DNA from: Neisseriaceae bacterium
GTDB taxonomy: Bacteria > Pseudomonadota > Gammaproteobacteria > Burkholderiales > Chromobacteriaceae
Length of the DNA stretch: 64,000 bases
Assembly: GCA_027489245.1 (NCBI GenBank)
Contig: JAIYAC010000018.1
Location: 43,526 to 107,525, forward strand
Reading direction: 5' to 3'
Positions 19,647-59,088 of this stretch are shown one piece after another (position 1 is the stretch's first letter; each line of letters opens with the position of its first letter). Position numbers and translations under genes: made by a program. Under the pieces are notes generated by a model, which ran no database searches, was not told the origin of the DNA, and saw only the letters and a program-made list of their open reading frames with translations.

Positions 19647-19694
19647 AAAAGGTTGGCCGCCTCACCACTCACCCGGCGTGCAGCCAACCTTTTT
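19647..19694. repeat. Inverted pair of the AAAGGTTGGCCGC word
   Basis: AAAAGGTTGGC(CGC) at 19647 and GCCAACCTTTTT at 19683-19694. Confidence 0.7.
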
Positions 19695-19895
19695 GCTTCT
19701 GCCCTTGCCTGCTACCTGTTTGCCGGCGCTACGCCCTTCCCCAGATGCGCCGTTGGCTTATCCGGGCGACGGATTACACGTCGTAACCGTGGTCGGATGG
19801 GTCAAGTGGTAACCACCCGCCGCCTACCCGGCAGTTGACACGCCCCCGCCTAGCTGCCACCCTTCCACCCTCATTTTTTTCTGCCCCTACCTGCC

Positions 19896-20372
19896 ATGAA
19901 CATTACAAAAGACACCGCCGTTACCCTGCGCATGAAAGTGACCGACAGCCAGGGCAATATCTACGACGACGGCAAAAAGCCGGTTTCTTACCTGCACGGC
20001 GATTACGACAACCTGTTTGCCAAGCTGGAAGAAGCGCTGGAAGGCCAGGAAGCCGGCTTCCAGACCACGCTGGAGCTGAGCCCTGCCGACGCGTTTGGCG
20101 AGCGTGACGAAGCGCTGGTCACCACCATGGCCAAGGTGGATTTCCCGCCCGGCGTGAAGGTAGGCGGCCAGATTCAGCGCACCGGCCCCGACGGCGAGCC
20201 GCGCTACTACTTTGTCACCAAGATCAAAGGCCCTACCGTGCTGCTGGACGGTAACCACCCGCTGTGCGGCAAAACCCTGCGCTTCGCCATCAAGGTGGTA
20301 GACGTGCGCGCGGCCACGGCCGAAGAGATTGCCCACCAGCACGTACACGGCGAGCACGGCCACCAGCACTGA
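19896..20372 (+). CDS. slyD: FKBP-type peptidyl-prolyl isomerase, SlyD-like
   Basis: MNITKDTAVTLRMKVTDSQGNIYDDGKKPVSYLHGDYDNLFAKLEEALEGQ...HGEHGHQH with His-rich tail. Confidence 0.85.
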   Translation: MNITKDTAVTLRMKVTDSQGNIYDDGKKPVSYLHGDYDNLFAKLEEALEGQEAGFQTTLELSPADAFGERDEALVTTMAKVDFPPGVKVGGQIQRTGPDGEPRYYFVTKIKGPTVLLDGNHPLCGKTLRFAIKVVDVRAATAEEIAHQHVHGEHGHQH

Positions 20373-20556
20373 TCGCCCGCTGGCCGGTACGCATGCAGCC
20401 CTCCCATGGCGGAGGGCTTTTTTTTGCCCGCGCCCGGTGCACGGCGTCAGCTGCGCTGCGGCACAGGGCGCGGGGGCGGAAAGGTTGGCCGCATGATGCT
20501 TCCCTGCCCGGCTGCCGCGGCCTATCATCCACCCCCCGCTCTTGTTGCGAGTTGCC

Positions 20557-21423: not shown

Positions 21424-21510
21424 GCTGGCGTGCGGCCAACCCTGTAGCCCGGCGCCCTGCCGGGCTTTTTGCTGCCGGGTGCCACCACGGCGCATGGCAA
21501 TATAAAATTC

Positions 21511-21526
21511 ATCTAGACGTCTAGAT
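21511..21526. promoter_or_regulatory. 16-bp perfect palindrome, operator candidate
   Basis: ATCTAGACGTCTAGAT, followed by ATTGACA, upstream of the phosphatase-hemopexin gene. Confidence 0.5.
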
Positions 21527-21589
21527 ATTGACACGCCAGTGTCTTGCTACATGCCTAGCATGGTGCGTTCCACCACCAAAGGAACCACC

Positions 21590-23347
21590 ATGCAAAACAC
21601 ACTGAAAGGCCTGGCCGGCGCGGCACTGTGCCTGGCGCTAGCCAGCGCCCACGCCGCCCCCAAGGCCCTGCTGATCGGCATAGACGGCGCGCAGCTGGAA
21701 AAGGTGCAGGCGCTGAACCTGCCCAACTTCAAGCGCCTGAACATCGCCAAAGGCTATACCGGCGGCGTGGCCGGCAGCGCCAGCGAGCAGGAAACCTACA
21801 GCGGCCCGGGCTGGGCCACCATCCTGACCGGCGTATGGCGCAACAAGCACCAGATCAGCAGTAATAGCGACGGCCTGGCCAACCCGGCCTTCCCCAGCCT
21901 GTTCAAGCGCATCCGCGATGCCTACCCGCAGGCCTACATTGCCAGCGTCACCAACTGGGGCAATATCAACAAGCAGTTTTTTGCCAATGATATCCGCCGC
22001 AATAACTACAACGCAGAAGGGCTGAGCGACGAGGCGGTGGTAAGCAAGGCGGTGGAGCTGATCGGCACCACGCCGGCCGATTTCATCTTTGTGCACCTGG
22101 ACGACCCGGACCACGCCGGCCACGACAGCGGTTTTGGCCCGGCGTACGACAAGGCACTGCGCCAAGCCGATGCCCACCTGGGCCGGCTGCTGGATGCAGT
22201 CGCCACCCGCAAAGGTGCCAGCGGCGACAACTGGCTGGTGCTGGCGACCACCGACCACGGCCGCGACCCGGTAAAAGGCCAGGACCACGGCGCGCAGACA
22301 CGCAGCGAAAAAACCGTGTTCATCGCCAGCAACCAGCCGATGAATGCCGAGTTCACCAGCCCGGTCAGCCCGGTGGCCAACCCGGCCTTTGACGGCCTGT
22401 ACGGCCACGTCGCCCAGACCTGGATCGCCCCGACCGTGCTGCGCCACCTGGGTATAGCGCCACAGCGCAGCTGGCTGCTGGATGGCGCACCGCTACAGGG
22501 CAGCGTGGCCGTGCGCAAACTGCTGCCGGCCAGTGGTACGGCCAACGGCTTTAGCTGGGCCGCCAGCAGTGGCCCGGTAGAGATTTACCGCAACCAGCAG
22601 CTACTGGCCACCGTGCCGGCTAGCCAGCAAAGCTATGTGGATACCAGCAGCCCGGCCGGTTTGCAGGACTACACCCTGCTGCTGGGCGGCGTGCCGGTCA
22701 GCCTGCGCATGGGCCGCCCCGGCCTGCGCACTGCGCTGGACTGGAGCGCGAGCCGCAGCTATTTCTTTCTGGATGACGGCAGCTATGTCCGTTACAACCA
22801 GACGGATGACAAGGCAGAGAGCGGCTACCCCAAAAGCACCAACAACAGCAGCTGGCCCGGGCTGGGCAGCTACGCCGGTCAGCTAGCCAGCGGCTTTAGC
22901 AAGGACGCCAACACCGCCTACTTTTTTCTGGGCAATGGCCAGTACGTGCAGTACGACAAGGTGGCCGACAAAGCCCTGCCCGGCTACCCGCAGCCGGTAA
23001 GCGAGCAAAGCTGGCCGGGGCTGGGCGCCTACGCCACCCAGATCAAGGCCACGCTGCGCCTGCCGGGTAACAAAGTGGCGTTCTTTCTGAAAGATGGCCG
23101 CTTTATCCGCTACGACCTGGCGGCCAACCGTGCCGATGGCGGCCCGCAAGCCATGGACAATACCAGCTGGCCGCAGCTGGGCGTGGATGCACGCCGCATC
23201 ACCACGGCCTTGAAATGGGACGACAGCCGTGCCTACTTCTTTCTGGATGATGGCCGCTATATCCGCTACAACCTGACGCAAAACCGGGCCGAAGCGGGCT
23301 TCCCCAAGCCGGTTAACAGCCAGACCTGGCCCGGCCTGCTGCCTTAA
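21590..23347 (+). CDS. Alkaline-phosphatase-superfamily phosphodiesterase with C-terminal hemopexin-like repeats
   Basis: Signal peptide; ALLIGIDGAQLEKVQALNLPNF, TTDHGRDPVKGQDHGAQTRSEKTVFIAS; four hemopexin-like repeats of the type AYFFLDDGRYIRYNLTQNRAEAGFPKPVNSQTWPGL. Confidence 0.8.
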   Translation: MQNTLKGLAGAALCLALASAHAAPKALLIGIDGAQLEKVQALNLPNFKRLNIAKGYTGGVAGSASEQETYSGPGWATILTGVWRNKHQISSNSDGLANPAFPSLFKRIRDAYPQAYIASVTNWGNINKQFFANDIRRNNYNAEGLSDEAVVSKAVELIGTTPADFIFVHLDDPDHAGHDSGFGPAYDKALRQADAHLGRLLDAVATRKGASGDNWLVLATTDHGRDPVKGQDHGAQTRSEKTVFIASNQPMNAEFTSPVSPVANPAFDGLYGHVAQTWIAPTVLRHLGIAPQRSWLLDGAPLQGSVAVRKLLPASGTANGFSWAASSGPVEIYRNQQLLATVPASQQSYVDTSSPAGLQDYTLLLGGVPVSLRMGRPGLRTALDWSASRSYFFLDDGSYVRYNQTDDKAESGYPKSTNNSSWPGLGSYAGQLASGFSKDANTAYFFLGNGQYVQYDKVADKALPGYPQPVSEQSWPGLGAYATQIKATLRLPGNKVAFFLKDGRFIRYDLAANRADGGPQAMDNTSWPQLGVDARRITTALKWDDSRAYFFLDDGRYIRYNLTQNRAEAGFPKPVNSQTWPGLLP

Positions 23348-23462: not shown

Positions 23463-23540
23463 TCCGTGGGAGCGCTGCTGGCGTGCAGTGCTGACGCGGC
23501 GTGCTGGCTTGGCTGCGGTGCAGTGTGCGGCCAACCTGGC

Positions 23541-24115: not shown

Positions 24116-25171
24116 ATGCGTATTCAGGACTTACACCAGATGCTGGCCGCCATTGGCGCCCGCCCTTGCCACATTGGCCGTATCAACCGCGCCTGGCTCA
24201 AAGGCCTGCCGCTGGATAGCGGCACACGCCATCAGAAAAGCGAGCATTACTTCCCCCTGCCGGTACGCGAGGGCCTGCCTGCCATTACGGCACAGGTAGA
24301 AGCCCTGGCGCGTATCCAGTCGCAGCACCCCGGCGCCGATGGCTCGCTGCGCTTGCTGGTGGCGCTGGCGGATGAGCAAAGCGTGGAAAGCGTGCTGCTA
24401 CCGCGTGACGGGCTGTGTGTGTCCAGCCAGGTAGGCTGTGCCGTGGGCTGTACCTTTTGCATGACCGGCAAAAGCGGCTTGCTGCGCCAGCTGGGCAGTG
24501 CCGAAATCGTGGCCCAGGTGGTGCTGGCACGGCGGCTGCGCCCAGTAAAGAAGGTGGTATTCATGGGTATGGGCGAGCCCGCGCACAACCTGGACAATGT
24601 GCTGGAGGCCATCCACTGGCTAGGCACCGACGGCAATATCGGCCACAAGAACCTGGTGCTGTCTACCGTGGGCGACCCGCGCGTATTCGAGCGCCTGCCG
24701 CAGATGCAGGTCAAGCCCGCGCTGGCACTGTCACTGCATACCACCGATAGCGCCCTGCGCGTGCGCCTGCTGCCGCGCGCACCGCGTTACGACCCTGCCG
24801 AGCTGGTGGCGCTGGGCGACGCCTATGCCCGCCAGGTGGGCTACCCCATCCAGTACCAGTGGACGCTGCTGGCCGGGGTAAACGATAGCCAGCAGGAAAT
24901 GGACGGCATTATCCGCCTGCTGAAAGGCCGCTTTGGCCTGCTGAACCTGATTCCGTATAACAGCGTAGAAGGCGACCACTACCAGCGCCCACCCGCCGAG
25001 GCGGTGGCCGACATGCGCCGCTACCTGCACAGCCACGGCGTGCTCACCAAGGTGCGCGACTCGGCCGGGCAAGATGTGGATGGCGGCTGCGGCCAACTAC
25101 GTGCCAGGGCGGCAGATATTATCGACCACAGCCGGCTGCTGCGCCGCGCAGGGTCAGCCGGGCAGGCTTGA
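24116..25171 (+). CDS. RlmN-family radical SAM RNA methyltransferase
   Basis: CAVGCTFC radical SAM motif, VFMGMGEPAHN, and a C-terminal GCGQLR Cys motif. Confidence 0.85.
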   Translation: MRIQDLHQMLAAIGARPCHIGRINRAWLKGLPLDSGTRHQKSEHYFPLPVREGLPAITAQVEALARIQSQHPGADGSLRLLVALADEQSVESVLLPRDGLCVSSQVGCAVGCTFCMTGKSGLLRQLGSAEIVAQVVLARRLRPVKKVVFMGMGEPAHNLDNVLEAIHWLGTDGNIGHKNLVLSTVGDPRVFERLPQMQVKPALALSLHTTDSALRVRLLPRAPRYDPAELVALGDAYARQVGYPIQYQWTLLAGVNDSQQEMDGIIRLLKGRFGLLNLIPYNSVEGDHYQRPPAEAVADMRRYLHSHGVLTKVRDSAGQDVDGGCGQLRARAADIIDHSRLLRRAGSAGQA

Positions 25172-27607: not shown

Positions 27608-27745
27608 GCAGCTGCTGCACAGTGTGTTCTGCCCTATTTCGCCTGGCCAGGCTTTATCCCCCCGCATACGCCCCCATCTAGCAGCCATGCCGTGCGCACG
27701 CGGCCAACCTTACGCTGCCCCGCGCAGCCAGATACGGAGCGTTTC

Positions 27746-29194: not shown

Positions 29195-30052
29195 CTAGCC
29201 CAAGTTGGCCGCAAACTGCGTGGGGGGCACCACTAAGGCACCCTGGTACAGCAGCCAGCCCAGCGCCGCCACGTTCAGCAGCACCGTGAGCCAGTACAGG
29301 CGGCGAAAAGACGGCTTGGTGGATTTGTGATTAAACACGTACTGCGCCAGCGCCGCCCCCGGCCAGCCACCCAGCAGCGCCAGCGCATGCAGCGTGCTTT
29401 CCGGCGTGCGCCACTGCTGGCGCTGGGCTGCGTGTTTGTCGCGGCCATAAGCCAGAAACAGCAGCACGCTCAGCAGACCATACGCCGCCAGCACCCAGGG
29501 CGCCAGCCGCCCTGCCTGCCACAATGCGGCCAACATCAGCACCATCGCCAGGGCGAGCCATGGCCGCGGGCGGCGGTCCGGTTTAAGGCTAGCCAGCACG
29601 TGCAGGCCGGGTAGCGCCGCGTAGTTCGCCCACACGGCTACCGGTTTGCCCTGTTCGTTCTGGCCGGCCTTGTAATACACCTCGTCGCCCGCCACCGGCC
29701 GCCTGGGCGACACCGGAAACGCCGACACGTGCACAAACAGCGACTGCCCGTCTGCCGTACCGATAAACCCGAAACCACGGCTATCGTCCCAGCGCAGCAG
29801 CGTACCTTTGTGCCGTGCGCTAGCGGCCTGCTTGGCGGTGGCTACTTGCGCCCACACGGCCTGTGGCCGGCCATCGCGCCCTGGCCCGGCACGGTAGTGC
29901 ACCGGGTCGCCCGCTGCTGGCAATACCCCATCGGCAAATACGCTGGCGTGGGCAAACAGCCGGCTGCCATCGGCCTGGCGGATAAAACCGAAACCGCGCG
30001 CCGCGTCCCAGCTGGCCAGCGCGCCTTCACTTGTGTTGTGCGGTGTGCTCAT
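29195..30052 (-). CDS. Two cold-shock-like domains fused to a DUF1294 membrane domain
   Basis: Two GFGFI-containing CSD segments (ARGFGFIRQADGSRLFAHASVF and SRGFGFIGTADGQSLFVHVSAF), then TMs with YGRDKHAAQRQQWRTPESTLHALALLGGWPGA. Confidence 0.8.
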   Translation of the reverse strand: MSTPHNTSEGALASWDAARGFGFIRQADGSRLFAHASVFADGVLPAAGDPVHYRAGPGRDGRPQAVWAQVATAKQAASARHKGTLLRWDDSRGFGFIGTADGQSLFVHVSAFPVSPRRPVAGDEVYYKAGQNEQGKPVAVWANYAALPGLHVLASLKPDRRPRPWLALAMVLMLAALWQAGRLAPWVLAAYGLLSVLLFLAYGRDKHAAQRQQWRTPESTLHALALLGGWPGAALAQYVFNHKSTKPSFRRLYWLTVLLNVAALGWLLYQGALVVPPTQFAANLG

Positions 30053-30252: not shown

Positions 30253-30302
30253 GATGTCTCTGCGCTAAAAGGTTGGCCGCCATTATAGAAGCGGCAACAA
30301 AA

Positions 30303-30350: not shown

Positions 30351-31571
30351 TTACTTGTTCAGGCGACCGGCAATGCGCATGCGCAGTGCGTTCAGCTTGA
30401 TGAAGCCGCCAGCGTCGGCCTGGTTGTAGGCACCGCCGTCGTCGTCAAAGGTGGCGATGTTCATGTCGAACAGCGAGTTGGTTTTGGAGTCGCGGCTCAC
30501 CACGATCACATTGCCCTTGTACAGCTTCAGGCGTACCCAGCCGTTCACGGTTTGCTGGGTGTAGTCGATCAGGGTTTGCAGCGCCTTACGCTCCGGTGCC
30601 CACCAGTAGCCGTTGTAGATCAGGCTGGCGTAGCGTGGCATCAGGTCATCTTTCAGGTGGGCTACTTCGCGGTCCAGGGTAATGGACTCGATCGCGCGGT
30701 GCGCCTTCAGGATGATGGTACCGCCCGGGGTTTCGTAGCAGCCGCGGGACTTCATGCCCACGTAGCGGTTTTCCACCAGGTCCAGACGGCCAATACCGTG
30801 CTTGCCGCCCAGCTCGTTCAGCTTGGCCAGCACGTCGTGCGCAGCCAGGCGTACGCCGTTCAGCGCCACGATGTCGCCCTTCTCGAACTCTACGTCCAGG
30901 TACTCGGCTTCATCCGGTGCCGCTTCTGGCGACACGGTCCAGCGCCACATGGCTTCTTCGGCCTCGGCGGACGGGTTTTCCAGATGGCGGCCTTCGAAGG
31001 AGATGTGCAGCAGGTTGGCATCCATGGAGTATGGTGCGCCACCGTTCTTGTGCTTCATGTCTACCGGAATGCCGTTTTTCTCGGCGTAGGCCAGCAGTTT
31101 TTCGCGGGACAGCAGGTCCCATTCGCGCCACGGGGCAATCACTTTGACGTCCGGTTTCAGGCCGTAGTAGCCCAGCTCGAAGCGCACCTGGTCGTTACCC
31201 TTGCCGGTCGCGCCGTGCGATACCGCGTCGGCACCGGTCAGGTTGGCGATTTCGATCTGGCGTTTGGCGATCAGCGGGCGGGCAATGGAGGTGCCCAGCA
31301 GGTATTCGCCTTCGTAAATGGTGTTGGCGCGGAACATCGGGAACACGAAGTCGCGTACAAACTCTTCACGCAGGTCATCGATGAAGATGTTTTCCTGCTT
31401 GATGCCGAACTGCAGCGCCTTCTGGCGTGCCGGCTCCAGCTCTTCGCCCTGGCCCAGGTCGGCGGTGAAGGTCACCACTTCGCATTGATAGGTGTCTTGC
31501 AACCACTTCAGGATCACCGAAGTATCCAGGCCACCGGAATAGGCCAATACCACTTTATTGATGTCTGCCAT
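30351..31571 (-). CDS. argG: Argininosuccinate synthase
   Basis: [53 protein letters not shown]... Confidence 0.95.
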
Positions 31572-31599
31572 CGTCTTCTCTCTCAGTCTACAAGCCGGG

Positions 31600-32523
31600 T
31601 CAGTCGTGTACACGACCCAGCATCAGGTATTCAATCAGGGCTTTCTGGGCGTGCATGCGGTTTTCCGCTTCGTCCCATACTACGCTTTGCGGGCCGTCTA
31701 TCACGTCGGCAGCCACTTCTTCGCCACGGTGCGCGGGCAGACAGTGCATGAACAGCGCGTCCGGCTTGGCTTGCTTCATCAGCGCATCGCTTACCATATA
31801 GCCTTCAAACGCATCACGGCGTGCTTCTGCTTCGCCTTCGAAGCCCATGCTGGTAAACACGTCGGTGGTCACCAGGTCGGCGCCGGCCACGGCAGAGGCC
31901 GGGTTGTGGAAGGCTTCGAAACAGTCGCTGTCGTAGTGCTGGCCGTCCAGCACCTGCAGCTCGTAGCCTACCGGCGTGGCGATTTTCAGCTTGAAGCCCA
32001 GCAGCTTGGCGGCCTGCAGCCAGGTGCGGGCCATATTGTTGCCATCGCCAATCCAAGCCACGGTCTTGCCCGCTATGCTGCCACGGTGCTCGATATAGGT
32101 CAGGATGTCGGCCAGAATCTGGCACGGGTGGTATTCGTTGGTCAGGCCGTTAATCACCGGCACGCGGGAAAATGCGGCCAACCTTTCCACCATGTTTTGC
32201 TCGAACGTGCGGATCATGATGATGTCCGCCATGCGCGACAGCACGCGGGCGGTATCTTCTACCGGCTCGCCGCGGCCGATCTGCGAGCTCTTGCCGTCCA
32301 GGAACATGGCGTGGCCACCCAGCTGCGACATGCCGGCTTCAAACGATACGCGGGTACGCGTGGAGTTCTTTTCGAAGATCATGGTCATCACCCGGCCTAC
32401 CAGGGGGCGGTACAGCTCGCCGGACACTTGTCGTCGCTTCAGTACCTGGGCTCGCTCGAAGATGTGCTGGTACTCCGCGGCGGAAAGGTCTGTGAACTGG
32501 AGAAAGTGTTTGGGCTGCTTCAT
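31600..32523 (-). CDS. argF: Ornithine carbamoyltransferase
   Basis: [27 protein letters not shown] ... [13 protein letters not shown]. Confidence 0.95.
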
Positions 32524-32855: not shown

Positions 32856-34814
32856 TCAGTTGAACCAGGCACGGCTAGGCAAGCCGGCCAGCTCGTCACC
32901 CCGCAGCACCCGCACGCAGAACTCGCCGCCCTCCTCGGCCAGGCCGTGCATTTCTATGCTCTTTTGTGTTTTCAGCAGCCGTGCCATGTAGGCCACGATA
33001 TTGGCTTCGATCACCTGCCCCGGCACCAGCACCGGTATACCCGGCGGGTACGGCACGATCTGGTCGCAGCACACGCGGCCGGTCAGCGCAGCGTTGGGCA
33101 GGCCGTCGTCGTCCAGCAGCGGCAGGCGCTCCCCCGCTTCGTAAAACGCGTCACGCGGCAGGCAGGCCAGGCGCGAGAAACCGGGGATTTCCGGCATTTT
33201 GCCCAGCGCACGGGGTGGGCGCTGCTCTTTGGCCAGCCGCAGCAGCGCATCAAACAGCCGCGACATCTTGCTGCGCGTGGTACCTACGGTCAGCAGCAGG
33301 GTGATGGTATTGAAGGTGGATTTTTCGATCTGGATATTGAAGCGCTCGAACAAGGCACGCTGCAGCTCGTCGGCGGAGTAGCCGCTTTGCGAAATATCCA
33401 CCGTCAGCTTGGTGGGGTCCAGCTGTACGCCGTCGTCGCGTACCGACTCCGGCAGCAGGTCATCCAGCTCCAGCACGCGGAAGGCACCGGTGGAGTTGAT
33501 CTTCTGCCGCAGCTCCTGTGCCAGCTTCAGTGCACGGTCCAGCAGGCGGAAGCCCTCGGTTACCGCCTGCTTGCGCGCCACGTCCAGGCTGGCAATCAGG
33601 TTGTATTGCGGGCTGGTGGAGGTGTGCATATTGAAGTTTTCGCGGAACAGGTGCTCATCAAACGTGGGGTCATTCACGTGGATCATGCTGGCCTGCGAAA
33701 AAGCTGACAGGATCTTGTGCGTGCTCTGGGTCACGTAGTCCGCGCCGGACTCCAGCGCCGTGGGGCGGAAGGCGTGGTGGAAGCGTGCGTGGCCGTACCA
33801 GGCCTCGTCCACGATCACCTTGATGCCGGCGGCGTGCGCCGCCTCGATAATGGGTTTCAGGTCGTAGCGCAGGCCGTCGTAAGTGCAGCTGGTCAGAATC
33901 AGCACGCGGGCGTCAGGGTTGGCCGCAATGGCGTCAAAGATCACCTGTTTGGGCACCGGACCAAAGATGCCGTACTGGCGGTTAACCGACGAATCCAGGT
34001 ACACCGGCTGCGCACCGGACAAAATCACGCCATGGTGCACGGATTTATGGCAGTTGCGGTCCAGCAGCAGCTTGTCACCCGGCGCCAGCAGGGTCTGGAA
34101 GATGACCTTGTTCGAGGTGGAGGTGCCGTTGGTGGCAAAGTAGGTTTTGCGCGCGCCAAACGCTTTGGCGGCCAACGTTTGTGCCTCGGCAATCACGCCG
34201 GTGGGGTGCAGCAGCGAATCCAGCATGGGCACCGATACCGACAGGTCGGCGCGCAGCATTTCTTCGCCGACAAAATCGTAAAAATCGCCCACCCACGGGC
34301 TGCCTTTCAGCGAGTCGCCGCCAGCGTGGCCCGGCGTATGCCACGAATCCTTGGCCATGCGCACGTACTGTTTGAGCTTGTCGTAAAACGGCGTGGCGGC
34401 TTTTTCGCCCATCTCGGCCGCCAGAATGCGGAACCAGCCGTTGAAATCGCGCTCGTCACGGTAGAAATAGCCGTCGATGGCGTGGCTGGCCAGTTCTTCC
34501 ATCAGCACTTTTTCGTCGTCATCCTGCAGCAGGATGTACAAGGACAACTCGGGCCGCAGCCGGTTGATCTGGTTGGCCAGCTGTACCGCCGGCTGGGTAG
34601 CGCCCTTCTCTTTCAGGCCCTTGTCTACCAGCACGATCTGCACTTCGCCGTCGCTGCCGGCGCGGGCCAGCGCGTCGCTGCTGCGGCCAACCCCTTCAAA
34701 ACACAGGCCAAACGGGTTGGCCATCTTGACCGCTACCGCAGCCAGCTCGGCCAGTACATTAGCTTGCCAGGCGGCATCATCGCTTACCACCAATACTCTG
34801 CTCACCGGATTCAT
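32856..34814 (-). CDS. Orn/Lys/Arg decarboxylase (PLP-dependent, class I)
   Basis: PLP-lysine region VTQSTHKILSAFSQASMIHV; response-regulator-like N-terminal wing domain; YPPGIPVLVPGQ. Confidence 0.88.
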   Translation of the reverse strand: MNPVSRVLVVSDDAAWQANVLAELAAVAVKMANPFGLCFEGVGRSSDALARAGSDGEVQIVLVDKGLKEKGATQPAVQLANQINRLRPELSLYILLQDDDEKVLMEELASHAIDGYFYRDERDFNGWFRILAAEMGEKAATPFYDKLKQYVRMAKDSWHTPGHAGGDSLKGSPWVGDFYDFVGEEMLRADLSVSVPMLDSLLHPTGVIAEAQTLAAKAFGARKTYFATNGTSTSNKVIFQTLLAPGDKLLLDRNCHKSVHHGVILSGAQPVYLDSSVNRQYGIFGPVPKQVIFDAIAANPDARVLILTSCTYDGLRYDLKPIIEAAHAAGIKVIVDEAWYGHARFHHAFRPTALESGADYVTQSTHKILSAFSQASMIHVNDPTFDEHLFRENFNMHTSTSPQYNLIASLDVARKQAVTEGFRLLDRALKLAQELRQKINSTGAFRVLELDDLLPESVRDDGVQLDPTKLTVDISQSGYSADELQRALFERFNIQIEKSTFNTITLLLTVGTTRSKMSRLFDALLRLAKEQRPPRALGKMPEIPGFSRLACLPRDAFYEAGERLPLLDDDGLPNAALTGRVCCDQIVPYPPGIPVLVPGQVIEANIVAYMARLLKTQKSIEMHGLAEEGGEFCVRVLRGDELAGLPSRAWFN

Positions 34815-40873: not shown

Positions 40874-40899
40874 AAAAGGTTGGCCGCAGCCAACCTTTT
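40874..40899. repeat. Inverted pair of the AAAGGTTGGCCGC word (terminator-like hairpin)
   Basis: AAAAGGTTGGC-CGCA-GCCAACCTTTT between pgm/pmm and prmB. Confidence 0.75.
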
Positions 40900-42323: not shown

Positions 42324-42386
42324 GAAAATAATGGCATCTATGGGAAAGGTTGGCCGCAAGCACCGCACCCGGGCTTGCGAATGGCA

Positions 42387-45166: not shown

Positions 45167-46429
45167 CTAAAACAGCTCGATAGGCGGCCGCGCCGCTGGC
45201 GATGGCTGCACTGCCCCCAGCGACTCGGCATGCGCTTGCCGCTGGTCTTCCATGACATAGCGCGTCAAATGCGCATCCAGCCGCTGCTGTAGCGTACGCT
45301 GCAATGCCGTACCCTGCCCCAGCTGCTGCAGGTGCTCGTCCATTTCACGCAGCGCGTATTGCACCTGCTCGATACGCTGGCGTACCACATCCTGAAACTG
45401 GATATAACCCAGCGCGTCGGATAGCTGCTGCAATACCTGCTGGTTGCCCGCCTCTACCGACCCCATGACCACTTGCATGAAGTGGCTGGTGTCGGCAAAG
45501 CGCTTTTCCATGTCGGCCAGGTCGGTCACGATCACGCCCAGGTTGGTCACGCTGGCATTGCTGCTGAGCGCACTTTGCGCCAGGTGCAGCTCTTGTTCAG
45601 CCCGTTCCGTCGCTGCCGTAATGCGAATCGAGATTTCCGATGCGGCATTGGCAGTTTGCGACGACAGCTTGCGCACCTCATCGGCGACCACGGCAAAGCC
45701 ACGGCCAGCCTCGCCGGCACGGGCCGCTTCGATCGCAGCGTTCAGTGCCAGCAAGTTGGTCTGCTTGGCGATATCGGCAATCACGCCGACCAGCGGCGCC
45801 AGGGCCGCCACATCGCCACTCAGGCGCTCGGTACGCGCCAGCGTCTCGCGCATCACCACCTGCTGTTCATCCATATGGTGCTTCAGGATGGCCACCACCT
45901 TATGGCTGTGCTCGGACTGCTGCTGAATCACCTCGGACAGCTGCTGGCCATTATTCATCGATTCGCTGATGCGGCGCATTTGCTCTGTGGAAATGCCATA
46001 CACCGAATTGATAGCGTTGATGATGGCCACCGCACCACGCTCGACCTCTTGCAAGGAGCCCTGCAGCTGTTTGTCCATCACCCGCAAGAAAGGCGATGTG
46101 CCCTGCATTTCATTCACAATGAGGGCATGTTGCTGCTGCAAGCGCTGCTCGTCGCCGCCACTGCCCAGCCGGTGCAGCAGCCAGGCCACCTCACGGCGCA
46201 GCAAGGGGACGGCCAACAGCATGAACAGCAGAAAAAAGGTCAGCAGCGATAGCGTGGCAAACAGCACATCGCTCGCTTCGCGCCCCAGGTTCATTCCGCT
46301 ACGCCACGCCTCCCACCAGGAAGATAACAGTACCGCCAGCATGGCATTCAGCATGACTGCGGCCAACAGGGCCAAACCCAAACGGCGCCCGGCGCCGGGT
46401 TGTAAGGAGCTCAGGATGGTTTGCGGCAT
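45167..46429 (-). CDS. Methyl-accepting chemotaxis protein
   Basis: Two TM segments, then [46 protein letters not shown]. Confidence 0.9.
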
Positions 46430-46812: not shown

Positions 46813-47067
46813 TCACCTCTTTTCTGTCTGGGAAAGGGTTATGGCCGACTGCAGCCAGCGCCGCAGCTCAGCCTGTTCCGGCCAGGCTTTCACCCTGGGG
46901 GCAGCAGCCATCAGCACCTGCAGGCTGGCGGGGTGCAGATAGCAGCAGCTCGCCAGGTCTATCTGGGCGGTACGGTGCTTTTGTAACCAGCTCAGCAGCA
47001 CTTCGGCCTCTTCCACACCGACGTGCTCGCGGCATACCACCAGATTTTTTTTGAACTCGATGGGCAT
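46813..47067 (-). CDS. STAS-like small protein in the chemotaxis operon
   Basis: 84-aa ORF ...EAEVLLSWLQKHRTAQIDLASCCYLHPASLQVLMAAAPRVKAW; overlaps the cheA stop by 1 nt. Confidence 0.6.
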   Translation of the reverse strand: MPIEFKKNLVVCREHVGVEEAEVLLSWLQKHRTAQIDLASCCYLHPASLQVLMAAAPRVKAWPEQAELRRWLQSAITLSQTEKR

Positions 47068-49694
47068 TACAGCAGTTCCTTTACATTCAGCACCATCAGT
47101 ACCGAGCCATCGCCCATCAGTGCCGAGCCGGCATACGCCGTCAGGCCGGACAGCACGCTCGACAGCGGTTTGATAATGACGCTGGTGGTAGCGTGAAAGT
47201 CATCCACCAGCAAACCTGCCACCTCGCCCCCAAAACGCACCAGCAGCACGGCAAACTCGTCATCCTCGTTGCACAGTGGCGGCGCCGCCATGCCCAGCAG
47301 CTGATTCAAGGCTTTTAGCGGCACAATACGGCCACGCAGTACGGTGGTCAGGCTGGTCTTGATGGTGTGGATATCGCGCCGTGCCACCCGCACAGTTTCC
47401 ACAACCGCATCCATCGGCACACCAAACAGCTGGCAGTCACTCTGGATCACCATGACATTGCTGATCGCCATGGACAGCGGCAGGCTTAGCCGCAGCTGCG
47501 TGCCACGGCCCTTCTGGCTTTGCAGCTGGATGCTGCCGTTCACCTTCTCTATAGCACTACGCACCACGTCCATGCCAACTCCGCGGCCAGACAGGTCGGA
47601 CACGACCTCGGCGGTAGAGAAGCCTGCCGCAAAGACCAGGTTGATGGCGGCCTGGTCGCTCAGGCGTTCCAGCGTGCTTTCATCGATAATGCCGCGCTGG
47701 TAGGCCTTGCGCTTGACTACCTCCGGGTCGATACCGGCGCCGTCGTCGATGATATCGATAATCACGCGGTCGGCTTCTTGCACCGCGCGCAGCGTCAAGG
47801 TGCCATACGGGGGTTTGCCGGCCGCCTGACGCTGGGCCGGCAGCTCGAAACCGTGGTCCAGACTATTGCGTACGATATGCACCAAGGGGTCGCCGAGCGA
47901 TTCGATAATGGTCTTGTCGGCGGCGGTTTCCTCGCCCTGCAACACCAGCCGCACGTCTTTGCCCAGGCGGCGCGAAATATCGCGCACCAGGCGCGGAAAG
48001 CGCTGAAACACCGACGACACCGGCAGCATGCGCACCTGCAGGATGGCATCCTGCATTTCGTCGGCAATGCGGTTGATCACCACGTACTGTGCTTTCAGCT
48101 CGCGTGCCAGCTCGCGGCAGTGGTAAACCGACTCGGCTCGTTGCGCCAGGTACGGCAACGCGTTTTTGGATACCACCATTTCGCCGATCAAGTTGACCAG
48201 GTGGTCGATTTTTTCCTGATCCACTTTCAGGCTACGCGACAGCCCGCCACCGCTGTCGCTGCGTTTGATCAGCGACATGTCCGGCTCGGCAGGCAGTGCC
48301 TCCGACAACGCCACCTCGGGCAACGCCGGGGATGGCGTGTGCGCTGCCGGCGGCACAGTGCCAGACAGTGCCTGCAGGTAATCCAGTAAAGGTTGGCCGC
48401 TGCGCAGCGCCTCGGCCTGCGCCAGCGCCTGTTGCAGCTGGTCTTGTGTCTGGCTATCTGCTGGCAAACATGCGCGCAAACTGTGCGCGGCAGCACGCAA
48501 GCGGCCCACGTGCCAATCATCGCTGACCGGCAGCTGTAACACCTGCTGCTGGATGCGCAAGACCTCCGCCCGGGTACCCTCGGCCATGTCGAGCCCGACA
48601 ACGGCCGCCTTATCCTGCACAGGGTTGGCCGTAGAATTGGCTGCGAGCAGGGTCATGGGGTGCAGGCATTGCAGCAAAGCCTGCTGGCGAACATAGTTGT
48701 AGGGCTCTTCGGCCATGACCAGCCGCAGCCAGCGCAGCACGCCAGACTGCCACAACGCCGGACTGGAAAGCGCCAGCACGGCGTCGGTAGCGCGCCGCAA
48801 GGCCGCCGCATCGCCTTGCAGCAGCAAGGGCCAGGCTTCGGCAATGAAATCTTCGTATATCGGCCCGCCAGACGGCCCAGCCAAAGGCAGAATGAGATCC
48901 TCTACCGACAGGGCGTGCAGCGTGATGGCATCGGGCGTGTAGCGATAGTATTCCTCCAGCTCGTCACGGCTGGCATCGGACAACAGGTGAAAGCCCAGTA
49001 CACAACGATACGCATCCAGCAGCGCCAATTCCGGCCAGGGCTCGCGGGCCACCACTTGCCCCCACAGCTGGCCCGGCGTATGCATGGCCTGGTGCAAGGG
49101 GTCCAGCCCTTGAAAAAAGCACTCGGCTTCCGGCTGATACTGCACGGCAAACACCTGCCCGCCCTGGCACAGGTGCTGATAGATCACCATACGTTGCGGC
49201 TCTGGTACCGCAGCCAGGTCAAATGGCGGGTTCAGCAAACCCCACGCCGGCGCCGGCTCTGCGGCCAACGCTAAAGTACCGGGCGCCAGCTCGGGTACCG
49301 CGGGATCGCTACTGGCAATCTGCCGGCGCAGCGTATCGGCCAAGGCACTGGCCACCCCCGCATGGCTGGCGGCATAGCTGCCGTGGTTTTCAATTTCGTC
49401 AAACAGCAGGTCGACAAAGTCTGCCGCCTGCAGCAGGCTGTCTGCCGTCAGCTCGGTAAAGGGCTGCTTGCCATCGCGCACCACGGCCATCAGGTCTTCG
49501 CCGGCATGCAGCACCCTGGTCATGTCGGGGAAGCTGAACAAGCCGCTGTTACCTTTCAGCGTATGCACATGGCGAAACAGCTCGGCCACCAGGCTCGCAT
49601 CCCCTGGCCGGGTTTCGAGCTGCATCAGCTGTTCGCCTATGGCTTGCAGCGCATCGCGCCCCTCTGACAGAAACTGCTCGAGCAAGGGGTCCAT
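47067..49694 (-). CDS. cheA: Chemotaxis histidine kinase CheA
   Basis: HPt ELFRHVHTLKGNSGLFSF; HATPase VHIVRNSLDHGFELPAQRQAAGKPPYGTLTL; DLSGRGVGMDVV; C-terminal CheW-like domain. Confidence 0.93.
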   Translation of the reverse strand: MDPLLEQFLSEGRDALQAIGEQLMQLETRPGDASLVAELFRHVHTLKGNSGLFSFPDMTRVLHAGEDLMAVVRDGKQPFTELTADSLLQAADFVDLLFDEIENHGSYAASHAGVASALADTLRRQIASSDPAVPELAPGTLALAAEPAPAWGLLNPPFDLAAVPEPQRMVIYQHLCQGGQVFAVQYQPEAECFFQGLDPLHQAMHTPGQLWGQVVAREPWPELALLDAYRCVLGFHLLSDASRDELEEYYRYTPDAITLHALSVEDLILPLAGPSGGPIYEDFIAEAWPLLLQGDAAALRRATDAVLALSSPALWQSGVLRWLRLVMAEEPYNYVRQQALLQCLHPMTLLAANSTANPVQDKAAVVGLDMAEGTRAEVLRIQQQVLQLPVSDDWHVGRLRAAAHSLRACLPADSQTQDQLQQALAQAEALRSGQPLLDYLQALSGTVPPAAHTPSPALPEVALSEALPAEPDMSLIKRSDSGGGLSRSLKVDQEKIDHLVNLIGEMVVSKNALPYLAQRAESVYHCRELARELKAQYVVINRIADEMQDAILQVRMLPVSSVFQRFPRLVRDISRRLGKDVRLVLQGEETAADKTIIESLGDPLVHIVRNSLDHGFELPAQRQAAGKPPYGTLTLRAVQEADRVIIDIIDDGAGIDPEVVKRKAYQRGIIDESTLERLSDQAAINLVFAAGFSTAEVVSDLSGRGVGMDVVRSAIEKVNGSIQLQSQKGRGTQLRLSLPLSMAISNVMVIQSDCQLFGVPMDAVVETVRVARRDIHTIKTSLTTVLRGRIVPLKALNQLLGMAAPPLCNEDDEFAVLLVRFGGEVAGLLVDDFHATTSVIIKPLSSVLSGLTAYAGSALMGDGSVLMVLNVKELL

Positions 49695-49695
49695 A

Positions 49696-50064: not shown

Positions 50065-50903
50065 TACGCCTCCCTGGGTTTTTGATAAACGATGGCATCG
50101 GGAAATTTGCGCACTTTGTACAAGGCGGAGATGCGGCTCATGGACTCAGAATGCCCCAGCAGCACGAAACCACCGGGCTTGAGCGCATCGTAAAAGGTTT
50201 CCGCCGCAGCCTTGCGCGAAACATCATCAAAGTAAATCAGCAGGTTACGGCAAAAGATCACGTCAAAATTACGGTAGGCGCGGGTGTCTTCACGGTCGGA
50301 CAGGTTGACCCGGGTAAACTCCACCGCCTCACGCAATGCATCACAGATCTGGTAGCCGCCTTGTTGCCGCTCAAAATATTTCTGCAGGTACATGGCAGGC
50401 ATTTGCGCGACCGAGCGCGCCGAAAAATGCCCTTGCCTGGCCGTATGCAAGACTTGGGTGTCGATATCGGACGAGATGATTTCCACGTCCCAGTCACTGA
50501 TTTGCGGCCAACATTCCAGCAGCGACATCGCGATCGAATACGCTTCCTCGCCCGTAGACGAAGGAATCACCCAGATGCGTATCGGGTCGCGCTGGCGATG
50601 GTGCAGCAGGATCTCGGGCAATATGGAGCGCACCAGGCAGTGAAACTGGTAATCTTCGCGAAAAAAATACGTTTCGTTCACCGTCATCAGGTTGGTCAGC
50701 ACCTGGAGCTCTTCCCCCGAGGCCTGAAAGCGCACAAAAGAAAAGTACTCGCGAAAAGCGCTATAGCCGGTAGTTTCTATGCGCTCGATCAGCCTTTTGT
50801 CGACAAAGTAGCGCTTGCTATGCTCGAAATGAATGCCGGTTTTACGGTAAAAGAATTCTCTGAATTTCTCGAAGTCATCCTCGCTAATCGACAATTTTGT
50901 CAT
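50064..50903 (-). CDS. cheR: CheR methyltransferase
   Basis: FEKFREFFYRKTGIHFEHSKRYFVDKRLIERI...IWVIPSSTGEEAYSIAMSLLE...DVIFCRNLLIYFD. Confidence 0.9.
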   Translation of the reverse strand: MTKLSISEDDFEKFREFFYRKTGIHFEHSKRYFVDKRLIERIETTGYSAFREYFSFVRFQASGEELQVLTNLMTVNETYFFREDYQFHCLVRSILPEILLHHRQRDPIRIWVIPSSTGEEAYSIAMSLLECWPQISDWDVEIISSDIDTQVLHTARQGHFSARSVAQMPAMYLQKYFERQQGGYQICDALREAVEFTRVNLSDREDTRAYRNFDVIFCRNLLIYFDDVSRKAAAETFYDALKPGGFVLLGHSESMSRISALYKVRKFPDAIVYQKPREA

Positions 50904-52666: not shown

Positions 52667-54226
52667 TTATGCCGCCAGGTTGGCCATACCCTCCAGATCT
52701 TGCGGTGCCAGCAGGTGGGCTGGCTCGATCAGCTGCACCATACGTTTTTGTTTTTCCAGGTTGGCCATGCGCGCCAGCAGCTTGGCCTGCTCGTCGGACA
52801 GGCGTGGGGCCGGCTCAATGGCCGATTTGTGGATGCGCAGCACCTCGGCCACGGAGTCCACAATAAAGCCGGTGCATACCCCGGCAATCAGGAACACCAT
52901 CACACGCTGGCTTTCATTGCGCTCGATACTGTCCAGCCCCAGGCGGCGGCGCAGGTCTACCACAGGCAGCACCGTGCCGCGCAGGTTGATCACACCCTCC
53001 ACGCAAGCCGGCGCCTTGGGGACGTGCATCAGCTGCTCGGGGACGCGTACGATTTCCTGCACGCTTTCGATGGACACACCAAATTCTTCACGGGCCAAGC
53101 GAAATACCACCACCTGCTCGTCATCGTCGATCTCGTCATCCAGCGTATCGGGCTGGCCGTCCCCAGCCTGGTCTGACAGCAGTTCCACGTTCTTCAGTGC
53201 CTCCCGGATGTAAGCATGGTCAAACAGGTTGGCCGCAGTAATGATGGACACCAGGCGCTTGCCGCCGTCCAGCCGGCAGATGCGGTCTATCTCGGCCATC
53301 TGCCCCTCGCGCACCAGCAAGCCGGGCATGTCGTCTACCTGGGCGCGTGGCACCCGCAGCACCTCGTTGACGTTATCCATCACCACGCCTACCGATGCAC
53401 TGCCCAGTGCCACCACCACGATACGGCTGTGCTCCTGTTCCGCCTGCGCGGGCAAGCCAAACAGCGTACGCAGGCTCACCAGTGGCAGCAGGCGCTGGCG
53501 CAGGGTCATCACGCCAAGCACATGCGGCTCGGCACGCGGTATGCTCACGATGTGCTCGGGCAGCTGCACAATCTCTTGTACGTCCTCGATGGCGATGGCG
53601 TATTCCTGCCCGGCCACGTCAAAGCTCACCAGCTGCAGCTCGTCGCTTTCTTCTTCCGCCGCCTCGGCATCGGCCTGCGCGGCCAGGTGCACCAGGTTGG
53701 CCGCATCGCCCCCCAGGCTGGCCAGCGCCTGGAATTCACCCGACATCAGCTTCTGGAAATCCAGCACCATCACCATCGGGTAGCCACCCACATCCTTGAT
53801 GATGCCGGTCAGCAGGTCGGTATCGATGCTGCTGCGGATACTGTCCACGCTTTCCACCCTGCCGGGTTCGACCCCCACCACGCTGGTAACCCGATCCACG
53901 ACAAAACCCAGCGGCTGGCCGATGTCGATCACCAGCGCCCGCGTACTGTCGTCGTGTTCGCTACGCGAAAAGCCGAACATGTGGCGTAAAGAAATGATGG
54001 GCAGGATCTTGCCCCGCAAATTGGACAAACCATCCAGTGCGGCGGGGGCCAAGGGCACACGCACCACGTCTGGCACCCGGATAATCTCCAGCACCGGGGC
54101 CATTTCTACCGCAAATACCTCGCCCCCCGTCTGGAAGGTAACGTACTGGCAGGTGTCTGCCTCTTGCACATCCTGCGTATCGCCGGGCTGATCTAGTGCT
54201 CCCGGCGAGCTTGTTTCATTGGCCAT
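52667..54226 (-). CDS. Protein with three tandem CheW domains
   Basis: Three CheW-like segments: YVTFQTGGEVFAVEMAPVLEIIRVPDVV...NLRGKILPIISLR; LVSFDVAGQEYAIAIEDVQEIVQLPE...RLLPLVSLR; VVVFRLAREEFGVSIESVQEIVRVPE...NLRGTVLPVVDLRRRLG. Confidence 0.9.
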   Translation of the reverse strand: MANETSSPGALDQPGDTQDVQEADTCQYVTFQTGGEVFAVEMAPVLEIIRVPDVVRVPLAPAALDGLSNLRGKILPIISLRHMFGFSRSEHDDSTRALVIDIGQPLGFVVDRVTSVVGVEPGRVESVDSIRSSIDTDLLTGIIKDVGGYPMVMVLDFQKLMSGEFQALASLGGDAANLVHLAAQADAEAAEEESDELQLVSFDVAGQEYAIAIEDVQEIVQLPEHIVSIPRAEPHVLGVMTLRQRLLPLVSLRTLFGLPAQAEQEHSRIVVVALGSASVGVVMDNVNEVLRVPRAQVDDMPGLLVREGQMAEIDRICRLDGGKRLVSIITAANLFDHAYIREALKNVELLSDQAGDGQPDTLDDEIDDDEQVVVFRLAREEFGVSIESVQEIVRVPEQLMHVPKAPACVEGVINLRGTVLPVVDLRRRLGLDSIERNESQRVMVFLIAGVCTGFIVDSVAEVLRIHKSAIEPAPRLSDEQAKLLARMANLEKQKRMVQLIEPAHLLAPQDLEGMANLAA

Positions 54227-56208: not shown

Positions 56209-56436
56209 GCTGAAGCCTCCGTGCCGGGCCAAGGGCCCTGATAAGTTTTCTCAGACTATCCGCTTAAATTCATTACAAATTAATTTAAAATATAATTATC
56301 AACATAGACCGCATTGTTATTAATACAAGCAGCCAAAACAAACATTACAGAATCGGCATGGGCACAAGCTGATTGCCTGGCTGTGCCATTAGCCGCGCAG
56401 CGCAGGCGGGTACCGCGGCAAGAGCGCACCGCACAT

Positions 56437-56475
56437 AGCCCAAGGGCCTGTCGCATGGCGACAGGCCCTTGGGCT
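56437..56475. terminator. Strong hairpin terminator
   Basis: AGCCCAAGGGCCTGTCGC-ATG-GCGACAGGCCCTTGGGCT. Confidence 0.75.
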
Positions 56476-56521
56476 TGGCATCAGGCACGGGCTGCCAGCA
56501 GGCTACCCGTACACATCAGTA

Positions 56522-57310
56522 TCAGAAGGCCGGTACGACAGCGCCCTGGTACTTGGTCTCGATGAATTTCTTGGTTTCCGGGCTGGTCAGCGCAGCGGCC
56601 AGTTTCTTGATAGCCGGGCTATTTACGTTGTCCTTGCGGGCCACCAGCAGGTTGGCGTACGGCGAGGTGGTTTCAGCAAACAGGCCGTCTTTTTTCGGGT
56701 TCAGCTTGGCTTCCAGCGCGTAGTTGGCGTTAATCAGCGCCAGGTCTACCTGGTTCAGCACGCGCGGCAGGGTGGCGGCTTCCAGTTCTTTCAGCTTCAG
56801 GTCTTTCGGGTTGGCCGCAATGTCTTTCTTGCTGGGGTACAGGTTCTTGCGGTCTTTCAGCTTGATCACACCACCTTGGTCCAGCAGTAGCAGCGCGCGG
56901 CCGGCGTTGGTCGGGTCATTCGGAATGGCCACGGTCGCGCCCTTGGGCAGGTCGGCTACTTTCTTGAATTTGGCGGAGTAGGCAGCAAACGGCTCGATGT
57001 GTACCGGCTTGCTGGCCACCACCAGGGTGGTGCCACGGTCTTTATTGAACTTGTCCAGGTAAGGAATGTGCTGGAAGAAGTTGGCGTCCAGCTGTTTTTC
57101 CTGCACCTGGGTGTTCGGCAGCACGTAGTCGTTGAATACTTTTACTTCCAGGTCTACGCCCTGCTTGGCCAGCGCAGGTTTCAGCGCTTCCAGGATTTCG
57201 GCGTGGGGTACCGGCGAAGCCGCTACGGTCAGTTTCACGTTTTCTGCCTGGGCGGCAAAGGCGATGGCGGCCAGGCCAACGGCGGCGGCCAGTTTGCTGA
57301 TGCGGGTCAT
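56522..57310 (-). CDS. metQ: Methionine ABC transporter substrate-binding protein
   Basis: Signal peptide; VKLTVAASPVPHAEILEALKPALAKQGVDLEVKVFNDYVLPNTQVQEKQLDANFFQHIPYLD. Confidence 0.93.
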   Translation of the reverse strand: MTRISKLAAAVGLAAIAFAAQAENVKLTVAASPVPHAEILEALKPALAKQGVDLEVKVFNDYVLPNTQVQEKQLDANFFQHIPYLDKFNKDRGTTLVVASKPVHIEPFAAYSAKFKKVADLPKGATVAIPNDPTNAGRALLLLDQGGVIKLKDRKNLYPSKKDIAANPKDLKLKELEAATLPRVLNQVDLALINANYALEAKLNPKKDGLFAETTSPYANLLVARKDNVNSPAIKKLAAALTSPETKKFIETKYQGAVVPAF

Positions 57311-57399
57311 GGTTTTTCCTTTTTGAGAGAAAGTCTTCCCCCTGCCCGGCCGGTTCGGCGCGGGCATGCGGGGCACAGCATGATTAACAGGGAAATGTC

Positions 57400-58077
57400 T
57401 TAGTCGAAGCGACAGCGGCGTACCAGGCTGTCACCGGCCGATTGCAGGCCTTGCACCAGCGCCAGCAGCAGCACCACGGTGACGATCATGATTTCGGTCT
57501 GGAAGCGCTGGTAGCCGTAGCGGATAGCCAGGTCGCCCAGGCCGCCGCCGCCAATCACGCCGGACATGGCGGTGTAGCCCACCAGTGCCACGGCGGTCAC
57601 GGTGGCTGCGCCAATCAGGCCCGGCAGCGATTCCGGCAGCAGCACCTTGAACACGATGTGTGGCAGGCGCGCGCCCATGGACTGGCTGGCTTCAATCACG
57701 CCGCGGTCTACTTCGCGCAGCACGTTTTCTACCAGGCGGGCAAAAAACGGTACCGCACCCACCACCAGCGGCACGATGGCACCCGCCACGCCGATGGAGG
57801 TGCCCACCAGCAGCAGGGTGAACGGCATCAGCACGATCAGCAAAATCACAAACGGCAGCGAACGCAGCACGTTCACCAGGAACGACAGCACCGCGTAAAG
57901 GCGCGGGCGGGCACGCAGCTGGCCCGGGGCAGACACAAACAACAGCACGCCCAGCGGCAGGCCGGCCAGCACGGTAAACAGCATGGACACGCCCAGCATG
58001 GTGAGGGTATCCAGCGTGGCTTCGCCGATTTCGACCCAGTCGATCTCCAGCAGCAGGTTCCAGTCAAAATCCAGCAT
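57400..58077 (-). CDS. metI: Methionine ABC transporter permease
   Basis: ATLDTLTMLGVSMLFTVLAGLPLGVLLFV...GAVPFFARLVENVLREVDRGVIEASQSMGA. Confidence 0.93.
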   Translation of the reverse strand: MLDFDWNLLLEIDWVEIGEATLDTLTMLGVSMLFTVLAGLPLGVLLFVSAPGQLRARPRLYAVLSFLVNVLRSLPFVILLIVLMPFTLLLVGTSIGVAGAIVPLVVGAVPFFARLVENVLREVDRGVIEASQSMGARLPHIVFKVLLPESLPGLIGAATVTAVALVGYTAMSGVIGGGGLGDLAIRYGYQRFQTEIMIVTVVLLLALVQGLQSAGDSLVRRCRFD

Positions 58078-59088
58078 TTACAGCACCTCGCAACGCACAC
58101 CCTCGCGGGCAAAGATGGCCGGCAGTGCCGACACGTCTACATCCGACGCCACCACGCCAGCCAGCAGCTGGCCAAACGGGGTGTCCTTGATTTCCGACAG
58201 CGTGCCGGACAGCAGGTTGACGCGCAGGCCAGCCTCGCGGCCAACCTTGTCCAGCACTGGCTGCAGCGTGGGCTCGCCGACAAAGGTGAGCTTGATCACC
58301 GGGGTAGCCACGCGCTGGCGCCAGATGCCTTGCAGTGCGCCCTGCCCCATGCCGGTTTCGGCCAGCAGACTTTGCGTCACCGCGTGCTGCGGTGCCAGGA
58401 ATACGTCCAGCACCTTGCCTTGCTCCACTACGCGGCCGTGGTCCAGTACCGCCACGCTATCGCACAGCTGACGGATGACACGCATATCGTGGGTAATCAG
58501 TACGATGGTCAGGCCCAGCTGGCGGTTGATGTCGGCCAGCAGCGCCAGGATGGCGTCGGTGGTTTCCGGGTCCAGCGCACTGGTGGCCTCGTCGCACAGC
58601 AACAGGTCGGGGTGGTTGGCCAGCGCACGGGCAATGCCGACGCGCTGTTTCTGGCCGCCGGAGAGCTGCGACGGGCGCTTGTGCTTGTGATCCTGCAAGC
58701 CAACCAAGGCAAGCAGCTCGTCTACGCGGGCATCCATCTGCGCCGGGCTCAGGCCACCGGCCAGCTCCAGCGGGAAGCGCACGTTGGCCGCTACGGTACG
58801 CGAGCGCAGCAGGTTAAAGTGCTGAAACACCATGCCGATGCGCTGGCGGCGCTGCTGCAGGGCACGCTCGTCAAAGCGGGTGATGTCTTCGCCGTGCAGG
58901 CTGACATGGCCGCTATCGGGCCGCTCCAGCAGATTAAGGCAGCGGATCAGCGTGCTCTTGCCGGCACCGGAGCGGCCGATAATGCCGTAGATCTCGCCGC
59001 TGGCAATCTGCAGGCTGACGTTATCCAGCGCGGCCACGCTTTTGCCGCCGTGCTGGTAGTGTTTGCTGATGTTTTGTACTTCGATCAT
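58078..59088 (-). CDS. metN: Methionine ABC transporter ATP-binding protein
   Basis: MIEVQNISKHYQHGGKSVAALDNVSLQIASGEIYGIIGRSGAGKSTLIRCLNLLERP; LSGGQKQRVGIARALA; C-terminal NIL-like domain. Confidence 0.95.
   Translation of the reverse strand: MIEVQNISKHYQHGGKSVAALDNVSLQIASGEIYGIIGRSGAGKSTLIRCLNLLERPDSGHVSLHGEDITRFDERALQQRRQRIGMVFQHFNLLRSRTVAANVRFPLELAGGLSPAQMDARVDELLALVGLQDHKHKRPSQLSGGQKQRVGIARALANHPDLLLCDEATSALDPETTDAILALLADINRQLGLTIVLITHDMRVIRQLCDSVAVLDHGRVVEQGKVLDVFLAPQHAVTQSLLAETGMGQGALQGIWRQRVATPVIKLTFVGEPTLQPVLDKVGREAGLRVNLLSGTLSEIKDTPFGQLLAGVVASDVDVSALPAIFAREGVRCEVL

Follow-up and report, generated by a model that had tools for sequence, protein, structure and literature searches.

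Introduction

DNA uptake sequences (DUS) of the Neisseriaceae are words of 10-13 bases that occur in very many copies on both strands and in several dialects (AT-DUS ATGCCGTCTGAA, AG-DUS, AG-mucDUS, AG-simDUS, AG-kingDUS and AA-king3DUS; PMC3630211). They also form inverted pairs of the terminator type, their dialects follow phylogeny, and they are missing from horizontally acquired islands. We report here that a word sharing these properties, with the consensus AAGGTTGGCCGCA, recurs in a 64,000-nt stretch of DNA (hereafter, the window) deposited as Neisseriaceae bacterium (assembly GCA_027489245.1, contig JAIYAC010000018.1, positions 43,526 to 107,525), whose source genus is Vogesella, placed by NCBI in the Chromobacteriaceae, Neisseriales. 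Considering its abundance on both strands, its lack of polarity, its inverted-pair terminators, its genus dialects and the presence of a ComP-like pilin, all of which support the proposal of an initial annotation that it was a DUS-like candidate, we infer that the word is the uptake sequence of Vogesella and part of a dialect system of the Neisseriaceae kind (probability about 0.88), and that it very probably serves the recognition and import of kin DNA.

In every published dialect, positions +6 to +8 read CTG and +10 is A (Frye 2013, PMC3630211), and a DD region with four cysteines is said to contact the DUS in Neisseria ComP (PMC4906244). The origin of DUS has been placed after the split from C. 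violaceum, which was described as having neither DUS nor ComP, and in 2013 Laribacter, Lutiella, Pseudogulbenkiania and Chromobacterium were surveyed without a DUS being found (PMC3630211). The uptake signal sequences (USS) of the Pasteurellaceae (AAGTGCGGT and ACAAGCGGT) follow the same self-recognition logic as the present word and also have subtypes, but are unrelated to it in sequence; no ComP homologue occurs in that family (PMC4906244).

Abundance and consensus of the word

The exact 12-mer AAGGTTGGCCGC was present nine times in the window, against 0.02 copies expected, at the places where the initial annotation had read seven 13-mers, which begin one base earlier, and two 12-mers. The related form GGTTGGCCGC was found 21 times (0.47 expected). 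Because k-mer statistics put GTTGGCCGCA on top of all 10-mers in the window (n=23), the word, reported as one of 12-13 bp, is real but extends one base further than had been noted. When 464 kb of the source genome were analyzed with a 4th-order Markov model, GTTGGCCGCA was found 312 times against 7.2 expected. The full consensus is AAGGTTGGCCGCA, in which a 9-base core, GTTGGCCGC, is almost invariant: a single-base change anywhere in the core left 0-1 copy each, compared with 67 for the consensus. By contrast, the 5′ AAG and the final A showed graded conservation, and conservation of the flanks ended at about 13 bases.

Over the whole source genome (G000; 3.51 Mb, 26 contigs, 88% complete), AAGGTTGGCCGC occurred 547 times (255 forward and 292 reverse), whereas its reversed control word occurred on neither strand. 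The frequency is thus beyond chance, as had been claimed, and neither a count near background nor confinement to this locus was found.

Distribution and dialects in the Chromobacteriaceae

Conservation across related species, a check suggested by the initial annotation, was evident, since AAGGTTGGCCGC was present in 13 of 13 Vogesella genomes at 485-1050 copies each. V. indigofera DSM 3303, whose locus L173 shares 3.4 kb of identical sequence with the corresponding locus of G052, and G052 itself each carried 535 + 515 = 1050 copies. The remaining 48 family genomes had 0-9 copies, so that the form ending in GCA belongs to Vogesella only. The core density in the sampled Vogesella genomes was 725-1288 per Mb, or about one core per kb, similar to the 400-1100 bp per site of neisserial genomes (PMC7371117). 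In an order-wide survey of 399 genomes from about 51 families, Chromobacteriaceae included, the word did not rise above background in any of the 386 sampled genomes of the 50 other families.

We analyzed k-mer enrichment in 100-200 kb samples of the sister genera and then counted the words in whole genomes; the two agreed. The most enriched word had the same core with another 3′ end, namely AGGTTGGCCGAA in genera g6, g7, g9 and g10 and AGGTTGGCCGAG in genus g5, and no comparable word was found in the samples of g2, g3, g4 and g8. Whole-genome counts of AGGTTGGCCGAA were 144 and 610 in g6, 465 in g7, 599 in g9, 468, 68 and 384 in g10, and 417 in a single g2 genome (G010), as against 0-22 elsewhere in the family; those of AGGTTGGCCGAG were 731 and 428 in g5 and at most 27 elsewhere. 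Three dialects can therefore be told apart by their 3′ ends: GCA in Vogesella, GAA in eight genomes and GAG in two, the latter two dialects together spanning six other genera. Four genera of the family are mostly or wholly without the word.

Two further observations concern the dialects. G010 is the only g2 genome with the GAA word, nine other g2 genomes being at background, and thus offers a natural loss or gain experiment. The GAG-dialect genome G034 carries eight foreign GAA words within 7 kb (C1:1158709-1165793), perhaps a gene array or an import from a GAA-dialect relative.

A ComP-like pilin and the transformation machinery

The source genome encodes, at C1:41422, a 140-aa type IV pilin whose best matches in the PDB were the three ComP structures (2m3k, 5hz7 and 2nba; E 7e-10 to 1.5e-7) and which exceeds the cut-off of Pfam ComP_DUS. 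Its nearest solved structures are thus ComP rather than PilE or other pilins, as expected of a ComP orthologue. It resembles Neisseria ComP, the minor type IV pilin that serves there as DUS receptor, in its length of about 140 aa and in sequence over the helix and the stretch 'ENA-FME--Y---G-(Y/F)K-T---WP-LP'. The Pfam name alone is not diagnostic, because a second pilin of G000, nearest to P. aeruginosa PilE, also scores. Almost every genome of the family has a relative of the C1:41422 pilin, the clearest being that of the GAG-dialect genome G034 (E 2e-13 to ComP of PDB 2nba). The top fold match of an AlphaFold model of V. indigofera ComP was meningococcal ComP, a match that is only supportive because the model is poor (pLDDT 61).

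In Vogesella, comP overlaps the end of an upstream FimT/GspH-like pilin gene and lies near aroB (L173:9561-10417; L043:959-1914); in V. indigofera, aroK and pilQ adjoin as well (aroB and aroK were named from their translations alone). Elsewhere in the Chromobacteriaceae the neighbors of comP differ, and no such pilin pair was found outside Vogesella. It is possible that the FimT-like and ComP-like pilins form a two-pilin DNA receptor. G000 also encodes type IV pilins and DprA, and ComEC was found in 59 of the 61 family genomes, including 11 of 13 Vogesella.

A short stretch near the C-terminus of ComP coincides with the dialect, being (Q/S)TG with GCA (13/13), QDG(N) with GAA (8/8) and ESGN with GAG (2/2). 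Word-negative relatives mostly have QDG too, and because each group is nearly one clade we regard this match as a lead and not as a statistical result. Likewise, a ComP loop N-[TAV]-D-x-G was compared with the presence of the word, with a result of 22/23 versus 0/7 that, at only 2-3 independent contrasts, is not significant.

Based on these data, we propose that extracellular double-stranded DNA carrying AAGGTTGGCCGCA (core GTTGGCCGC) would probably be bound by the ComP-like minor pilin on a type IV pilus, and that the bound DNA would be pulled through the PilQ secretin, enter via ComEC and be recombined with the help of DprA. Kin DNA carries a core roughly every kb, whereas foreign DNA has hardly any; uptake would therefore favor kin DNA, and recombination would in turn spread and keep the word. 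The same system, with the GAA and GAG 3′ ends, would operate in six other genera of the Chromobacteriaceae, and appears to have been lost from, or to be absent in, others.

Relation to the neisserial system

Several observations weigh against assigning the word to a DUS system. All of its dialects have CCG at +6 to +8, as opposed to the CTG of Neisseriaceae DUS, and +10, an A in published DUS, is A in GCA and GAA but G in GAG; because of the CCG core, the word falls outside a strict definition of neisserial DUS (CTG at +6 to +8, A at +10). In 28 of 30 sequences, the C-terminal part of ComP carries two globular cysteines with a spacing of 9-10 residues, and in 2 it has one extra, so that the four cysteines and two disulfides of an extended DD region, as in Neisseria ComP, were not found. 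Some genera have a ComP-like pilin and yet no word. Neither G000 (88% complete) nor its nearest relative, G058, yielded a ComEC; in many relatives this gene lies about 9-10 kb from a contig start, so an assembly gap is possible, as is a recent loss of transformation, after which the words would persist for a while. Finally, a literature search, outside of which lay subscription journals and preprints, returned no report of the word or of DUS in Vogesella or Chromobacteriaceae and no paper on Vogesella transformation, and among the matches listed for the word strings none was on DNA uptake. We consider that a DUS-like mode of working stands in spite of the divergent core, with binding by ComP, preferential uptake and recombination as its presumed steps.

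The relationship of the word to DUS was analyzed by comparison with eight published dialects, of which the king3 and wad sequences were compared only with a published verbal description. The word had been said to differ from the ATGCCGTCTGAA dialects. It is indeed not the same word, and its interior, GTTGGCCG, is in none of the eight; however, the GAA dialect AGGTTGGCCGAA matches AG-simDUS (AGGCTGCCTGAA) and AG-mucDUS (AGGTCGTCTGAA; both from PMC7371117) at 9 of 12 positions in register. With both strands and seven shifts permitted, about 1% of random or shuffled 12-mers reached nine matches, compared with 0.2-0.4% in register. Moreover, the A to C change at +9 that separates GAA from GCA likewise separates kingDUS from king3DUS. 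Common descent with Neisseriaceae DUS is therefore plausible, although a similarity of 9/12 (p about 0.01) can only hint at it.

Of the explanations other than a ComP-read relative of DUS, the one that survives best is itself a variant and not exclusive of it: the word could be an uptake sequence that arose independently of Neisseriaceae DUS, just as the USS of the Pasteurellaceae is unrelated to DUS, or one that is read by another receptor, such as the FimT-like pilin. The CCG core, the ComP-like pilin devoid of a DD region and the FimT/GspH-like gene that directly precedes and overlaps comP are all consistent with this explanation, and FimT is reported as a DNA-binding pilin in other species (PMC8897410). 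Against it are the in-register identity to AG-simDUS and AG-mucDUS, the fact that ComP is the best match of the ComP-like pilin, and the restriction of the FimT-comP pair to Vogesella. We regard it as unlikely, but worth keeping in mind.

A farther-reaching history can also be drawn, which we put forward tentatively and at somewhat less than even odds. DUS-guided transformation would predate the split of Neisseriaceae and Chromobacteriaceae; AGGTTGGCCGAA would be ancestral in the latter family and homologous, in register, to AG-DUS, CTG being the state of the Neisseriaceae only. ComP without a DD region would read the word, together with a FimT-like partner in Vogesella, so that the binding mode would differ from the published one, and the changes from GAA to GCA and GAG would co-vary with the ComP stretches QDGN, QTG and ESGN.

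An uptake sequence in Vogesella would extend a signal of the gonococcal type to a second family, one previously reported to have none, and the CTG core, thought to be universal, would have a CCG counterpart. A second family in which the dialects are its own, the core is different, the ComP is simpler and the word has been gained or lost several times would provide natural experiments on receptor-site co-change over thousands of sites. In practical terms, donor DNA equipped with the word should open Vogesella and its relatives to genetic manipulation.

Placement of the word and alternative functions

Copies were found between and within genes and on both strands genome-wide, as had been described for the window. 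Their placement bears on the possibility that the word is a signature of codon usage, of restriction-modification or of a DNA-binding protein (nucleoid, regulator) unrelated to uptake. In keeping with such a signature, genic sites prefer a single permissive codon phase; the reader of the word could also be some host protein that is not a pilin. However, both senses and all six frames are represented among genic sites, and the density between genes is 1.1-2.1 per kb compared with 0.40-0.57 in genes, that is, ~2 to 4.5 times higher (the split, taken from ORF-based gene calls, is approximate), which led us to reject a codon-usage artefact. Relatives of similar GC content are without the word, changes in the core are limited to 0-1 copies each, and the 3′ end shifts by dialect between genera with ComP-type pilins. 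Restriction sites are usually depleted and not enriched, which counts against a role in restriction-modification. A signature of any of these kinds is thus very improbable.

Certain copies form head-to-head or tail-to-tail pairs, as in AAAAAGGTTGGCCGCATGCGGCCAACCTTTTT (-22 kcal/mol, z -6), and others overlap as the dyad TGCGGCCAACGTTGGCCGCA. Some of the hairpins are strong and are followed by T runs. The DUS of Neisseria and its relatives are also used as terminators, and some copies of the present word probably double as intrinsic terminator stems, judging from these predicted structures. Overlapping dyads are likewise shared with neisserial DUS, as in Simonsiella (PMC3630211). One hairpin built from the word was noted in the window, at 40874-40899 (−), where AAAAGGTTGGC-CGCA-GCCAACCTTTT forms a terminator-like structure with an 11-bp stem and a 4-base loop (-17.5 kcal/mol, z -4.3), one arm of which is the full motif at 40876-40888 (+).

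The strong hairpins with T runs and the higher density between genes would suit a dispersed repeat of the REP/MITE kind or a genus-specific intrinsic terminator stem. Conservation, however, does not reach beyond about 13 bases, and no longer repeat unit was seen, so that a long repeat or mobile element was rejected; two thirds of the sites in the source genome lie within genes, in all frames, and '+-' pairs account for no more than about a dozen of the 489 core sites. We give this explanation marginally less weight still than the preceding one.

A chromosome signal with polarity, for example Chi (RecBCD) or KOPS (FtsK loading), with which a short, very frequent, chromosome-wide and non-palindromic word would agree, is barely credible and was rejected, because orientation judged from local GC skew gave 251 leading-like versus 251 lagging-like sites, and because the word has genus-level dialects, is nearly absent from sister genera and forms inverted pairs.

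A word-free Tn7-like island

No core 9-mer was found in the 27.5 kb made up of the window's first 19.6 kb (word-free part, 1-19640) and the 7.8 kb upstream of it, where ~27 were expected. This region (G000:C2, about 35694-63176) has a GC content that falls to 42-50% and encodes a transposase with rve and Mu C-terminal domains (TniA), TniB and TniQ; its gene content identifies it as a Tn7-like element with cargo. A self-recognition word is predicted to be absent from a transposed island, and depletion in acquired DNA was accordingly seen in the one island examined. Neisserial genomic islands are likewise without DUS (PMC7371117). Word-free regions may thus mark foreign islands. The island, the genus-wide spread of the word and the dialects of the sister genera had been overlooked by the initial annotation. 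The cargo includes a 1497-aa AAA protein and a nuclease-like protein with a NucS C-terminal domain, possibly a defence load.

Sites in the window

The exact 12-mer AAGGTTGGCCGC lies at 19649-19660 (+; the 13-mer starts at 19648), 27700-27711 (−), 30269-30280 (+), 48389-48400 (+) and 58237-58248 (−), and the full motif AAGGTTGGCCGCA at 20481-20493 (+), 32173-32185 (−) and 42346-42358 (+), in addition to the hairpin arm given above. The site at 30269 lies in a 5.6 kb arg region, is not upstream of any annotated start and falls just outside the argG ORF (30351-31613, −), and that at 42346 is near the start of a phosphoglucomutase/phosphomannomutase ORF. The sites placed earlier within argF, cheA and metN proved to be so located: 32173-32185 within argF (31600-32523, −), 48389-48400 within the cheA-like gene (47067-49694, −) and 58237-58248 within the metN-like gene (58078-59169, −).

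The 10-mer GTTGGCCGCA was further found on the + strand at 29204-29213, 33918-33927, 45087-45096, 53228-53237, 53696-53705, 56810-56819 and 63522-63531, and on the − strand at 21431-21440, 23526-23535, 25088-25097, 29525-29534, 34682-34691, 36098-36107, 46358-46367, 49260-49269, 50503-50512, 59527-59536, 60249-60258 and 62564-62573. At 23120-23129 (−) and 36393-36402 (−), the core occurs as GGTTGGCCGC, with a 3′ end that is not A. The near matches listed by the initial annotation were right within 2 bases, whereas those at 23120, 23527, 34683 and 60250 had been missed.

Other over-represented words

The 8-mer GTCGATCA was found 72 times in the 464-kb sample of G000, compared with 18 expected, a fourfold excess that is unexplained. 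In G045 (L113-L122), GCTTAAGCA, which is unrelated to the uptake word, was 13-fold enriched (45 vs 3.4). In G037 (L123-L132), CTAACAAAAC / GCTAACAAAACC was ~260-fold or more over-represented in few copies and is probably a dispersed repeat.

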